From: an uncultured Pseudomonadales bacterium
GTDB taxonomy: Bacteria; Pseudomonadota; Gammaproteobacteria; Pseudomonadales; Azotimanducaceae
Length of the DNA stretch: 64,000 bases
NCBI GenBank assembly: GCA_938036875.1
Contig: CALHVX010000025.1
Span: 1 to 64,000, forward strand
Direction: 5' to 3'
This document shows, piece by piece, positions 23 through 20,871 of the stretch. The notes below the pieces were generated by a model. That model worked only from the letters and a program-made list of their open reading frames with translations, was not told the origin of the DNA and searched no databases. Both the position numbers and the translations under genes were made by a program. How positions within the stretch are numbered: the first letter of the stretch is position 1; the number at the start of each line of letters is the position of its first letter.

Positions 23-697
23 GTGCTGGCGGCACGTTTCGCCAGCGCTGAATTTCGAGCCGGCATGCAGCGCCTGGCACGGCGCCTGGGTTTACAACAA
101 CTGCATGACGCCGTGCCTAAAGATTGGCAAATTCCAGACAGTGCATTTGCAGTCCAAACAATAGAGGTGGCCAACCGGCTGTGCCCAGCGTTTATGGTAC
201 GACACTGTTTTAGGGCTTATTGTTTTGGCGCCATACTTGCTGCACGCAACAAGCTAACCCTAAACAGAGAGACATTCTTTGTCGCCGCGATGCTGCATGA
301 TCTGGGGTTGTGCGACAAACACGCCCAAGATACTGGCTCCTTCGAATGGGTTGGTGCGAAGCTGGCGCACAGCATCTGTCTAGAAGCCGAGCAAAGCGAG
401 ATCACGGCCGCAACTGTTCACAACGCCATTGCATTGCATACCTCCTTAGGCCTTGCGCATAAGTACCAACCAGAGATTGCGTTGCTTCACTTTGGCACCG
501 GCATGGATTTGTTTGGTATGCGCCTGGATGAGATACCCACAGACACCTTAGCAACGGTACTTGAAGCCTACCCTCGGGGTGAGTTCAAAACCGAGTTCTC
601 ACCCTGCCTTGAGCATCAAGCGAAGATAAAGCCTGACAGCCAAATCGCCGGCGCTGTTGGCATCGGAATACTTGATCGCATCAAGCAGCAACTTTGA
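23..697 (+). CDS. HD-domain phosphohydrolase-like protein (cyanamide-hydratase-like HD family)
   Basis: 224-aa ORF with HD motif context 'FFVAAMLHDLGL' and later 'IALHTSLGL'; GTG start near the window edge, so the N-terminus is uncertain. Confidence 0.65.
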   Translation: MLAARFASAEFRAGMQRLARRLGLQQLHDAVPKDWQIPDSAFAVQTIEVANRLCPAFMVRHCFRAYCFGAILAARNKLTLNRETFFVAAMLHDLGLCDKHAQDTGSFEWVGAKLAHSICLEAEQSEITAATVHNAIALHTSLGLAHKYQPEIALLHFGTGMDLFGMRLDEIPTDTLATVLEAYPRGEFKTEFSPCLEHQAKIKPDSQIAGAVGIGILDRIKQQL

Positions 698-7577: not shown

Positions 7578-8456
7578 ATGGATACCGGCAGCTTTACCGG
7601 CTTTGACTTAACCTTACGTGAACCAGGCATCGCTTGGTTTCAGTTCAACTCACCGGAACGCCTCAACGGCATGACCGGGGGCATCAAGCGCGACCTAGTT
7701 GAAGCGGTTACCCAAGCACAGATGGACAACCAGGTGCGCATCTTAGTGTTCACCGGCAGCGGCCGTGCGTTTTGCGCCGGCGATGACCTTAAGGCTTACA
7801 CCAATGCGCAACTACCGGGCGATGCACTGGTTCCCCCGATCCCTCCAGGACACGACAACGCATTAGGCACCTACAACGGCTTGCGCACCATCTCCCAGCG
7901 CCTGAACAGCACCATTCGCAGCATCGACAAGCTCACCATTGCGGCGATCAACGGCGTAGCGATCCAAACCGGTTTCTCTTTGGCATTAGCCTGCGACTTT
8001 CGTATCGCCGCACAGAACGCACGCATGGGCAGCGCGACTTTAAGGTTCGGATTGTTACCCGACGAAGGTGGTCAACATCTGCTGGTGCAGCATTTGGGCG
8101 TGGCAAAAACCTTAGAGTTTTTGATGAAGAAACGCATTGTCAGCGCCGACGAAGCGCTTGAGCTTGGGCTGGTCACTGAAGTGGTGCCCGCAGAGGCATT
8201 AGAGCAATCTGCGTTGGACTTCGCCACCGAATTGGCCAACGGCCCCCAAGTGTCCATGCGCCTTTTGAAGCGGTCCATCTACAACGCTGCGGAGCTGGGT
8301 TGGGATCAAGCACTAGACGAGATTGCGGCTAAAACGGCAATTGCCGACCACCACCCGGATGCAAAAGAGGGTGTACGCGCATTCCACGACAAACGGGATG
8401 CCAACTTCAACGCTTGGCTTGAGCCAAGCTCAGGCAAACGGTCAAACAAAATCTAG
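7578..8456 (+). CDS. Enoyl-CoA hydratase/isomerase family protein
   Basis: Crotonase fold motifs 'GRAFCAGDDLKAY', 'AAINGVAIQTGFSLALACDFRIA'; start placed at ATG 7578 behind AGAGGAG RBS. Confidence 0.88.
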   Translation: MDTGSFTGFDLTLREPGIAWFQFNSPERLNGMTGGIKRDLVEAVTQAQMDNQVRILVFTGSGRAFCAGDDLKAYTNAQLPGDALVPPIPPGHDNALGTYNGLRTISQRLNSTIRSIDKLTIAAINGVAIQTGFSLALACDFRIAAQNARMGSATLRFGLLPDEGGQHLLVQHLGVAKTLEFLMKKRIVSADEALELGLVTEVVPAEALEQSALDFATELANGPQVSMRLLKRSIYNAAELGWDQALDEIAAKTAIADHHPDAKEGVRAFHDKRDANFNAWLEPSSGKRSNKI

Positions 8457-18283: not shown

Positions 18284-18311
18284 TGGGTTTGCTTTGGTAG
18301 GCTTTGGGCAC

Positions 18312-18414
18312 GGGAGCGGGACAAAGTGTTTTGCTCCACAGGGCCATGGGGTTGAGGGAAGCATTGGAGGAGATTCCAATGCTTAAGTTGCGCAAAACAA
18401 TTTCTCCCGCTCCC
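18312..18414 (+). repeat. Palindromic element copy A1 (arms 18312-18334 / 18392-18414, core 18335-18391)
   Basis: GGGAGCGGGACAAAGTGTTTTGC vs reverse complement of GCAAAACAATTTCTCCCGCTCCC: 21/23 identical; core TCCACAGGGCCATGGGGTTGA...GATTCCAATGCTTAAGTTGC. Confidence 0.92.
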
Positions 18415-18552
18415 GCGCTCAAGGGTAACGATGAAATCCAACGAAGGTGCTTCACTTCTCGCTGGGCGCAAGCCCACCATCAATCTGAAATTCTAGGCTC
18501 ACCGCACACAGCAACCCCAGCTGTTATTCGCTTTGATCTAAGCTAGTAGCAT

Positions 18553-18664
18553 TTCTCGGTTCGGTGGGTTTTGGTTTTGCGCAACTTAAGCGTAGGAATC
18601 GCCCAAAATCTGCCTTCAACCCCATGGCCCTGTGGAGCAAAACCAAAACCCACCGGACCGAGAA
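18553..18664 (-). repeat. Palindromic element copy B1 (arms 18553-18580 / 18637-18664)
   Basis: TTCTCGGTTCGGTGGGTTTTGGTTTTGC vs reverse complement of right arm: 27/28, the exception being a T.G wobble; core is the reverse complement of the A-type core. Confidence 0.92.
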
Positions 18665-18688
18665 AGCCAACCAACCTAAACCAAAAAA

Positions 18689-20101
18689 CTAGCGAGCCCC
18701 AACCCATCCAGAGTGAAACCCATAAGGCACCCTAAACGGCATAACAATCGTAGCCACGGGCCCAGCGGCAACATCCTGCGCATCAATAATCACGCACTCA
18801 CTCTGATCAGCACCTTCATCGTGAACAAAGGTGATTAAGTAGCCATCATCTTCGGCACTAGCCCCAACGCGAGGCGCAAACACAGCCTCGCCGCCGTATC
18901 TGCTATCACCGTAGTAGTAGGTAGTCTCACTTGCCGATTGGCTGTCGTACTTCATGACGCCGTCAAAGGTGAAGGGGCGCTTTGGATTAAACACCGCGCC
19001 GTACACAAAACGGGTTTGATGACAGGCATAGTCATCGTTAACTCGAGTGAAATCACAATGCAGTTTGCTTAATGGACCTTCCGTGATTGCACCCGTTTTC
19101 AGGTTGATGCGCCACTGGTAAAGCTGCCCGTGTGTATCCGCCAATTTATCTTCGGGGATACTACCCACACCAACAATATCTGCTGTTTTTGACCGTGACG
19201 CTTGTAGCACTATCTCATCACCCTCTTCCCAAGCATTGGCGGTATGCACCACTACGCCCGGCTTCACTTCGAACCAACGTACGTCAGCATCGGTACCAAA
19301 ACGCGGCATCACGCCAATGCGTGCACCATGAGACTCTTCGTAGTCCAACGCGGGACCCCCAGATATTGCACGCTCAAAATCTAGCGTAATCGGAAAATCT
19401 AAAAACAGCGTGTGCTTTTCACTTACCGCAAAATCGTGCATAAACACTGGTTTTTCTATGGTTATCGGCGTTGAGTGGATCAACTCACCGTCTTTATTGA
19501 TCACCGAGTAACTCACAAAAGGCGTCTGAAATGCATAACCAAAAGTCATCATCTCACCAGTTTTTTGGTCAACTTTGGGATGCGCGGTAAACGGATGCCT
19601 TAACTTTCCATCAAAATCCGTTGCCCCTTCGGTCTCCAACCCAGGCAAGCGGATCACTGTTGGTTGCGACGGTTCGTGCAAGGCATAAAGCGTGTTGTTG
19701 TGAAACGCAAAGGCGGTATTCGCCAAATTTTTGTTGCTTGGAGCACCTTCAGGTACCCGAGACGGCGTGGGGTCCAGCATCGAGTTCATCCCTTTATAGA
19801 CCCAATCGCCACGCTCTTGCTCTAGCTTGTAGCCATCAGTTTGCACAAAGCGATTGCGATAGCGCGCCGACCCATCCGTAAACTCAATGGCGTGGATCAT
19901 GCCGTCACCATCAAAGGTGTGGTACGCCTCTTCGCTGAAGATGTGCACTGGGTTAGGACCGATCCGCAAAAAGTTACCCGCTAGGTCCTGCGGGATATTG
20001 CCTTGAACTTCCATGTTTTCAGCATCACGCTCTTCGGCGATTGGGCTGAAATTGCCGTTCAGGAAAAAGTTGTCTGTACTGCTGATTTTTGCTTCGGCCA
20101 T
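18689..20101 (-). CDS. Carotenoid oxygenase (RPE65/CCD family)
   Basis: Conserved His contexts 'FTAHPKVD', 'FMHDFAVSEKH', 'VVHTANAWEEGDEIV', C-terminal 'VPYGFHSGWV'; 'GNFLRIGPNP' N-terminal motif. Confidence 0.92.
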   Translation of the reverse strand: MAEAKISSTDNFFLNGNFSPIAEERDAENMEVQGNIPQDLAGNFLRIGPNPVHIFSEEAYHTFDGDGMIHAIEFTDGSARYRNRFVQTDGYKLEQERGDWVYKGMNSMLDPTPSRVPEGAPSNKNLANTAFAFHNNTLYALHEPSQPTVIRLPGLETEGATDFDGKLRHPFTAHPKVDQKTGEMMTFGYAFQTPFVSYSVINKDGELIHSTPITIEKPVFMHDFAVSEKHTLFLDFPITLDFERAISGGPALDYEESHGARIGVMPRFGTDADVRWFEVKPGVVVHTANAWEEGDEIVLQASRSKTADIVGVGSIPEDKLADTHGQLYQWRINLKTGAITEGPLSKLHCDFTRVNDDYACHQTRFVYGAVFNPKRPFTFDGVMKYDSQSASETTYYYGDSRYGGEAVFAPRVGASAEDDGYLITFVHDEGADQSECVIIDAQDVAAGPVATIVMPFRVPYGFHSGWVGAR

Positions 20102-20189
20102 GGTAATGCTCCGGGGCTTGTAGAAATGACGAAAACTGTAGCTTGCTACAAGTTGCTTGGGATGTGGAGTTTATTTTCTCGGGCATCAC

Positions 20190-20291
20190 GGGCGCGGGAC
20201 AAATTGTTTTGCTCCACAGGGCCATGAGAGTGACGGCGACACGGAGGCGATTCCCATGCTTAAGTTGCGCAAAACAATTTCTCCCGCACCC
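20190..20291 (+). repeat. Palindromic element copy A2 (arms 20190-20212 / 20269-20291)
   Basis: GGGCGCGGGACAAATTGTTTTGC / GCAAAACAATTTCTCCCGCACCC, 21/23 complementary; same core. Confidence 0.92.
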
Positions 20292-20372
20292 GCTCTACGC
20301 TAGCAATAGATCAACAGCTCAGCGAGCTTAGCGAATGCGGATAGCCACGGCGGTGCTGCCTGGAAATGCAGG

Positions 20373-20486
20373 TCTAGCAGTGTCGGTGGGTTTGGTTTTG
20401 CGCAACTTAAGCGCTGGAATCGCACAAAATCCGCTTTCAACCCCATGGCCCTGTGGAGCAAAACCAAACCCATCGGCGCTGATAGA
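20373..20486 (-). repeat. Palindromic element copy B2 (arms 20373-20401 / 20458-20486)
   Basis: TCTAGCAGTGTCGGTGGGTTTGGTTTTGC / GCAAAACCAAACCCATCGGCGCTGATAGA, 25/29 strict, 28/29 allowing G.T pairs. Confidence 0.92.
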
Positions 20487-20545
20487 CCGGGAACCCGAGA
20501 ACCTACACGCACGCGCTATCCAATTCAGGTGCAGCGCAGGCGCAG

Positions 20546-20643
20546 CTGCGGAACAAATTGTTTTACTCCACAGGGCCATGAGGGTGAAAGTGGCATGGAG
20601 GCGATTCCAACGCTTAAGTTGCGCAAAACAATTTCTCCCGCAC
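20546..20643 (+). repeat. Palindromic element copy A3 (arms 20546-20566 / 20623-20643)
   Basis: CTGCGGAACAAATTGTTTTAC / GCAAAACAATTTCTCCCGCAC, 17/21 complementary; same core. Confidence 0.9.
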
Positions 20644-20726
20644 CCGCTCTACGCTAGCAATAGATCAACAGCTCAGCGAGCTTAGCGAATGCGGATAGCC
20701 ACGGCGATGCCGCCTGAGAATGCAGG

Positions 20727-20840
20727 TCTAGCAGTGCCGGTGGGTTTGGTTTTGCGCAACTTAAGCATTGGAATCGCACAAAATCCGCTTTCAACCCCGT
20801 GGCCCTGTGGAGCAAAACCAAACCCATCGGCGCTGATAGA
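20727..20840 (-). repeat. Palindromic element copy B3 (arms 20727-20755 / 20812-20840)
   Basis: TCTAGCAGTGCCGGTGGGTTTGGTTTTGC / GCAAAACCAAACCCATCGGCGCTGATAGA, 26/29 strict; same core. Confidence 0.92.
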
Positions 20841-20871
20841 CCGGGAACCCCAGAACGAACACACCCAAGAA

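Follow-up and report, generated by a model that had tools for sequence, protein, structure and literature searches.

Hairpin copies at the locus and in the genome

The window analysed here is a 64,000-nt stretch of DNA from an uncultured Pseudomonadales bacterium. Between 18304 and 20842 it carries six copies of a hairpin element in three head-to-head (inverted) pairs, A1-B1, A2-B2 and A3-B3. The first pair is placed where gltD and a carotenoid-oxygenase-like gene converge, between their 3' ends; the other two occupy the interval from the start of the latter gene to the end of a damX-like gene. All six copies named in a preliminary description of this DNA are present, and their cores were re-found in a search of the genome with E-values of 1e-14 to 8e-18. 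The features, with cores located by sequence given in brackets, are as follows.

18304-18422, + strand: copy A1 (core 18328-18398); arms 18304-18334 and 18392-18422 flank the tip; starts about 20 bp past the gltD stop codon
18423-18551, no strand: A1-B1 spacer, not related to the A2-B2 spacer and without a sigma-70 promoter-like site
18552-18665, - strand: copy B1 (core 18574-18643), head-to-head with A1 and some 24 bp short of the carotenoid-oxygenase-like stop (18689); bears a paired T/A indel
20189-20292, + strand: copy A2 (core 20206-20275)
20371-20488, - strand: copy B2 (core 20395-20464), inverted partner of A2
20547-20642, + strand: copy A3 (core 20560-20629); its left arm differs from that of A2 except in the innermost part
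20725-20842, - strand: copy B3 (core 20749-20818), head-to-head with A3 and some 30 bp short of the damX-like stop (20872)
20194-20493 and 20548-20847 (span 20194-20847), no strand: duplicated pair units, 94% identical over 300 nt, the DNA between them unrelated
Contig C22, 72-141 (+ strand) and 270-339 (- strand): the Ca-Cb pair, at the contig end, beside a cyclase-like gene

Since two A-B units that are 94% identical are separated by unrelated DNA, the pair must have been copied as a unit, and it is the A-B pair that was duplicated in this genome. About 42 bp of unrelated DNA (20506-20547) parts the two units, so that this was not a clean tandem duplication. A1-B1 appears to be an earlier copy of this pair, with a spacer of unrelated DNA; more generally, the spacers of different pairs bear no relation to one another, the tips being inverted around 95-175 bp.

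The complete assembly (4.74 Mb, 190 contigs) contains exactly eight copies, the six of the window together with Ca and Cb, whose tips are nearly the same sequence; all eight stand as inverted pairs, at two loci. Mapped onto genes, as had been proposed, the copies lie directly after the gltD, carotenoid-oxygenase-like, damX-like and cyclase-like genes. A sequence scan revealed no promoter-like site near the copies and no terminator-like hairpin-plus-T-run at any copy.

A fixed tip on a covarying stem

Each copy consists of a 56-nt tip above a conserved 7-bp foot (GTTTTGC/GCAAAAC), below which the stem continues for about 24 bp, making about 118 nt overall; the stems of the window copies measure about 24-31 bp per side and are very stable. 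The paired differences between A and B stems reported in the preliminary description, and the paired T/A indel of B1, are visible in the sequence. When the eight copies were aligned, changes on both sides were found at 16 of the 37 hairpin pairs, a number reached by none of 500 shuffles, and 90.9% of paired cells were in fact able to pair, against a shuffled mean of 78.0%. The covariation score of 0.330 compares with 0.111 for shuffled alignments and at most 0.084 when the partner was slid; sliding the partner by 1-3 columns brought pairing down to 34-49%. None of five pairing and covariation measures was equalled in 500 shuffles. The covariation check that had been called for supports the view that the hairpin is maintained with its tip fixed and the sequence of its stem free. 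The earlier picture of a conserved core within a changing stem holds for the tip and for the paired variation of the stem, and has to be amended in that the inner core covaries too, Cb having G-C where the others have A-T (columns 27/77).

The six hairpins of the window had been treated as separate cases. A1, A2 and A3 have their inner arms in common, as do B1, B2 and B3; because one A-B pair, present three times, makes up all the copies of the window, there are, with the pair on C22, four independent stem types (A, B, Ca and Cb) and not six independent hairpins.

Wobble pairs carry information about the strand that folds. Read on the minus strand, the 31-bp arms contain 19 G-U against 4 A-C pairs (p=0.0026), a ratio that reverses on the other strand; with one of each duplicate pair kept, a hand count gives 14:3 (about p=0.013). 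This bias favours one strand as the folded molecule, with moderate weight for the window copies, since it disappears (14:13) when the arms are extended without the 31-bp limit.

Searches for relatives of the tip

The window copies have no Rfam family at the gathering threshold, and a match to TwoAYGGAY is absent from 18284-20870 up to E=10. Weak matches to microRNA families in Rfam were set aside as reflecting the long stem only, and matches of the R2 model to the window copies were rejected as homology, being owed to stem pairing and present on both strands. A strict pattern of the tip was found in none of 85,462 GTDB species and in no viral contigs, and nothing in plasmids and phages matched the element. 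The genome scan that had been proposed yielded the two further copies on C22, but none in the 206 other genomes of the same family (by blast or covariance search) or in 391 other genomes of the order (by covariance search); this absence of homologues has limits, because close relatives are missing (the nearest aroB relatives are about 60% identical), the patterns and filters were strict, and the searches covered genomes, plasmids, phages and viral contigs.

The same layout with other tips in other bacteria

A palindrome search was used to look for large palindromes in the loci around aroB in relatives. It brought up a pair in Pseudomonas (L056) with matching tips on unrelated stems, which also lies directly after gltD; the position of both pairs beside gltD may be a coincidence, because all the loci compared were taken around aroB. 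A fixed tip of 51-56 nt on a locus-specific stem of about 30 bp, often in inverted pairs, was found to recur with a different tip sequence. In the Pseudomonadaceae, such elements occur in 19 of 299 genomes, and their stems extend 23-26 bp past a 5-bp foot (arms of 28-31 bp) and differ by locus; at orthologous loci across related species they show paired substitutions with pairing kept. Covariation was seen at 33 of 46 pairs in this set, whose wobbles favour one strand by 40:6 (p=3e-7), and the favoured strand has two hairpins whose loops read ANGGA, a motif of the CsrA/RsmA type.

With a model of the Pseudomonadaceae set, the class was detected in the window's own family, where 19 of 207 genomes (in 12 of 37 genera) carry it and wobbles again favour one strand (46:25, p=0.017), and in 48 of 369 genomes across Gammaproteobacteria, a survey in which at most ten candidates per genome were scored and copy counts are therefore to be read as "at least". 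Two or more ANGGA sites are present in 48 of 50 class tips. TwoAYGGAY-like hairpins with locus-specific, near-perfect stems of about 30 bp are common in Gammaproteobacteria: those at L141-L170 (Pseudomonadaceae), L171-L200 (own family), and L281-L300 and L314-L318 (genomes G968, G952 and G1117) are TwoAYGGAY-like with two ANGGA loops. No close copies of the ANGGA-class tips were found in plasmids and phages. Neither a profile HMM nor local alignment against shuffles detected homology between the window tip and the ANGGA-class tips on either strand.

Two further observations concern individual loci. In one Pseudomonas copy (L131, about 1440-1560; G207:C1:471854) the right half seems to have given way to an inverted copy of the left half, and the orthologue of this copy in G307 (L152) is intact. 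In UBA7803, a further giant hairpin occurs twice in direct orientation (L019:962-1083 and 1221-1342); its arms measure 35 bp, and its 52-nt tip is different again in sequence.

Stems that are unrelated, stems that are shared and tips that invert

To compare stems within genomes, arm identity was set against a shuffled baseline (mean 0.44, 95% point 0.58). Copies in G968 have tips that are 96% identical on arms with an identity of 0.56, and their stems pair at 119 of 120 positions by Watson-Crick pairing. In G952 the tips are 97% identical and arm identity is 0.53, the stems being less well paired and one copy poorly so. In G1117 the tips are 85% identical, arm identity is 0.48 and 263 of 270 pairs are Watson-Crick, with arms that exceed 30 bp. 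Four other genomes (G946, G1083, G1165 and G1168) have one 30-31 bp stem common to all copies of each genome. In G946, G1083 and G1168 (L301-L313, L329-L335) the flanks of some copies occur in reversed order relative to the tip, which implies that the tip has inverted inside its palindrome.

Near-identical tips thus sit on unrelated, almost perfectly paired stems in the sampled genomes, and for this reason slow compensatory drift cannot by itself account for the pattern. The paired substitutions of the preliminary description are real, but they come from few independent stems, and the term understates the change, since in related families of elements whole stems are unrelated. Of the two causes it had offered, selection or a copying mechanism, the maintenance of structure is borne out, and slow selection alone is insufficient. 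Empty palindromes of similar size were found neither in 1.16 Mb of the window's own genome nor in 400 kb of G008. The gltD-hemE regions of Halopseudomonas relatives, compared for empty sites, are too diverged; H. pelagia retains a remnant of a left arm.

Interpretation

We put at about even the chances that the window family adds a new type of tip to the TwoAYGGAY-like or REP-dimer-in-palindrome hairpins, and that pairing is kept jointly by structure and by hairpin-templated copying. The functional molecule would be one strand folded into a hairpin, most likely RNA, and would read GCGCAACUUAAGC...UGUGGAGC, on the minus strand of the window for A copies and on the plus strand for B copies. The tip would be the putative binding site of a partner, for which CsrA/RsmA is plausible in the ANGGA class, and the stem a stalk of free sequence whose pairing is probably kept since only pairing would count for function. 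In addition, DNA synthesis across long palindromes may use one arm as the template for the other (template switching), such that both arms change together; tip inversion and double changes in one step would be the expected products of this process. Several points go against this reading: the wobble bias also fits a hairpin of single-stranded DNA and in the window copies depends on the 31-bp limit, template switching has no inherent length and alone leaves arms of about 30 bp unexplained, the window tip shows no homology to the TwoAYGGAY-like class, and the lack of a promoter-like site near the copies speaks against an RNA hairpin.

A different account, which we regard as rather unlikely, is that the tip is mobile and its insertion makes an inverted target duplication of about 30 bp, so that every copy starts out inside a perfect palindrome of its own. 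This fits G968 and G952 best, where near-identical tips lie on arms near chance identity and, in G968, pair perfectly, and it would suit both the narrow arm length in the Pseudomonadaceae and the absence of empty palindromes from the DNA surveyed. Against it, the shared arms of G946, G1083, G1165 and G1168 show that arms can travel with the element, the arms of G1117 extend past 30 bp, and a transposition product of this kind did not turn up in the literature searched; we know of no described element that produces an inverted target duplication of roughly fixed length. A wider version, that Gammaproteobacteria at large harbour a mobile hairpin whose arrival inversely copies about 30 bp of adjacent DNA and of which the window family is one tip type, is likewise rather unlikely. 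It is unlikely, too, that we are dealing with an ordinary structured RNA, either a small RNA or a 3'-UTR hairpin, that is kept by purifying selection and whose stems diverge by slow compensatory substitution only: the location of the copies just after genes, the strand-biased wobbles, the paired substitutions between species at orthologous Pseudomonadaceae loci and the inner arms common to the A and to the B copies all agree with such an RNA, but the unrelated-looking yet paired arms of G968 and G952 have changed too fast for stepwise compensation, and neither a promoter nor a terminator signal stands out.

The position of A1-B1 between two converging genes, and the great stability of the stems, would suit bidirectional transcription terminators or stabilisers of mRNA 3' ends; the missing T-runs, the location of the A2-B3 cluster between the start of one gene and the end of another, and a conserved 56-nt tip for which termination has no need make this very unlikely. 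Mobilisation as REP/BIME or REPIN elements by a RAYT transposase, a link raised in the preliminary description, is highly improbable: the inverted pairs downstream of genes are like REP dimers and the genome has a single Y1/RAYT gene (C121:4211-4540), but there are eight copies only, none of them on C121, no GTAG or CGTC tag is consistent, and the units are of about 118 nt instead of 20-40, longer than REP units as had been noted. That contig instead carries a different family of palindromes, GGGGTCAGAGCC, with the reverse pattern of conserved arms and variable loops. The idea of recombination sites, either attC-like integron sites or inverted repeats bounding an invertible segment, draws on tips that are inverted repeats of each other and on the almost identical tips of Ca and Cb, and is extremely improbable given spacers that are unrelated between pairs and lack a promoter, and stem ends at which, as the preliminary description had observed, RYYYAAC/GTTRRRY boxes are absent.

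Repeat elements usually have conserved ends and a variable middle. Here the opposite applies, the middle being conserved and the ends free provided that the arms pair. With the layout present under other tips in about one in eight of the sampled gammaproteobacterial genomes, it becomes testable how a new near-perfect palindrome originates at each site, and the answer would touch on the origins of RNA hairpins, on template switching in bacteria and on the titration of CsrA-type regulators by dispersed repeats.

Comparison with known systems

The statement that the element belongs to no named family was right for the tip, while its architecture resembles that of TwoAYGGAY and of REP dimers in palindromes. 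In the separate GGGGTCAGAGCCAAGTGCCAGAG family of palindromes in the same genome, arms are conserved and loops variable; it occurs on the contig of the only Y1/RAYT gene (C121; L125:6213-6287 and 8123-8217) and on C13 (L121:11854), C31 (L213:3189), C48 (L230:18947) and C25 (L108:16000), and is similar to the terminal repeats (GGGGWSAS) reported for TIRYT transposases. Inspection of the stem ends revealed no core sites of integron attC.

REPINs mobilised by RAYT (PMC3116915) are likewise inverted pairs of palindromic units with a short spacer and no gene of their own, but REP units are short with conserved stems, whereas in the window family it is the tip that is fixed and the stem that is free. 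Hairpin template switching (Monttinen and Loytynoja 2022; PMC8794818) is described as a mutation process in RNA genes, where it changes both sides of a pair in one step, lengthens stems by insertion and inverts loops. These are changes of the kind seen here, where the process would act on a repeat family with stems of about 30 bp.

Parts of the arrangement are already described in two systems: the poorly conserved external stem of TwoAYGGAY, and REP dimers inside palindromes, reported in 2013. The latter include CGTC-1 dimers of H. neapolitanus inside 41-bp palindromes and GTAG-15 dimers of A. variabilis inside long palindromes (Di Nocera et al. 2013; PMC3733652). Like the window copies these are intergenic and form inverted pairs, but their palindromes have a consensus sequence, whereas those of the window family, which numbers eight copies, are locus-specific; among its eight tips CGTC occurs only in A2 and GTAG only in B1, neither is conserved, and tagged palindromes of 20-40 bp are not seen. 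TwoAYGGAY (Rfam RF01731, clan CL00106), proposed to be a CsrA-binding RNA (PMC4333381), shares with the window copies a long, poorly conserved external stem (about 30 pairs) under a conserved, structured tip. Elements of the ANGGA class approach it more closely, one own-family relative (L181:1493-1622, - strand) scoring 52.9 bits where the gathering score is 43, and a member of a Pseudomonas pair 33.6. The window copies differ from TwoAYGGAY in having no match at gathering and no detectable tip homology; across all eight tips, ANGGA sites number 0 on the minus strand and 0-1 on the plus strand, short of its two loops. Because the tips show no homology to the TwoAYGGAY-like class on either strand, the common layout could be convergent. 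A palindrome that differs from copy to copy, near 30 bp and near-perfect, was not found described in the literature searched, and the window family represents this layout with a new type of tip, belonging to neither the TwoAYGGAY nor the REP-dimer family.
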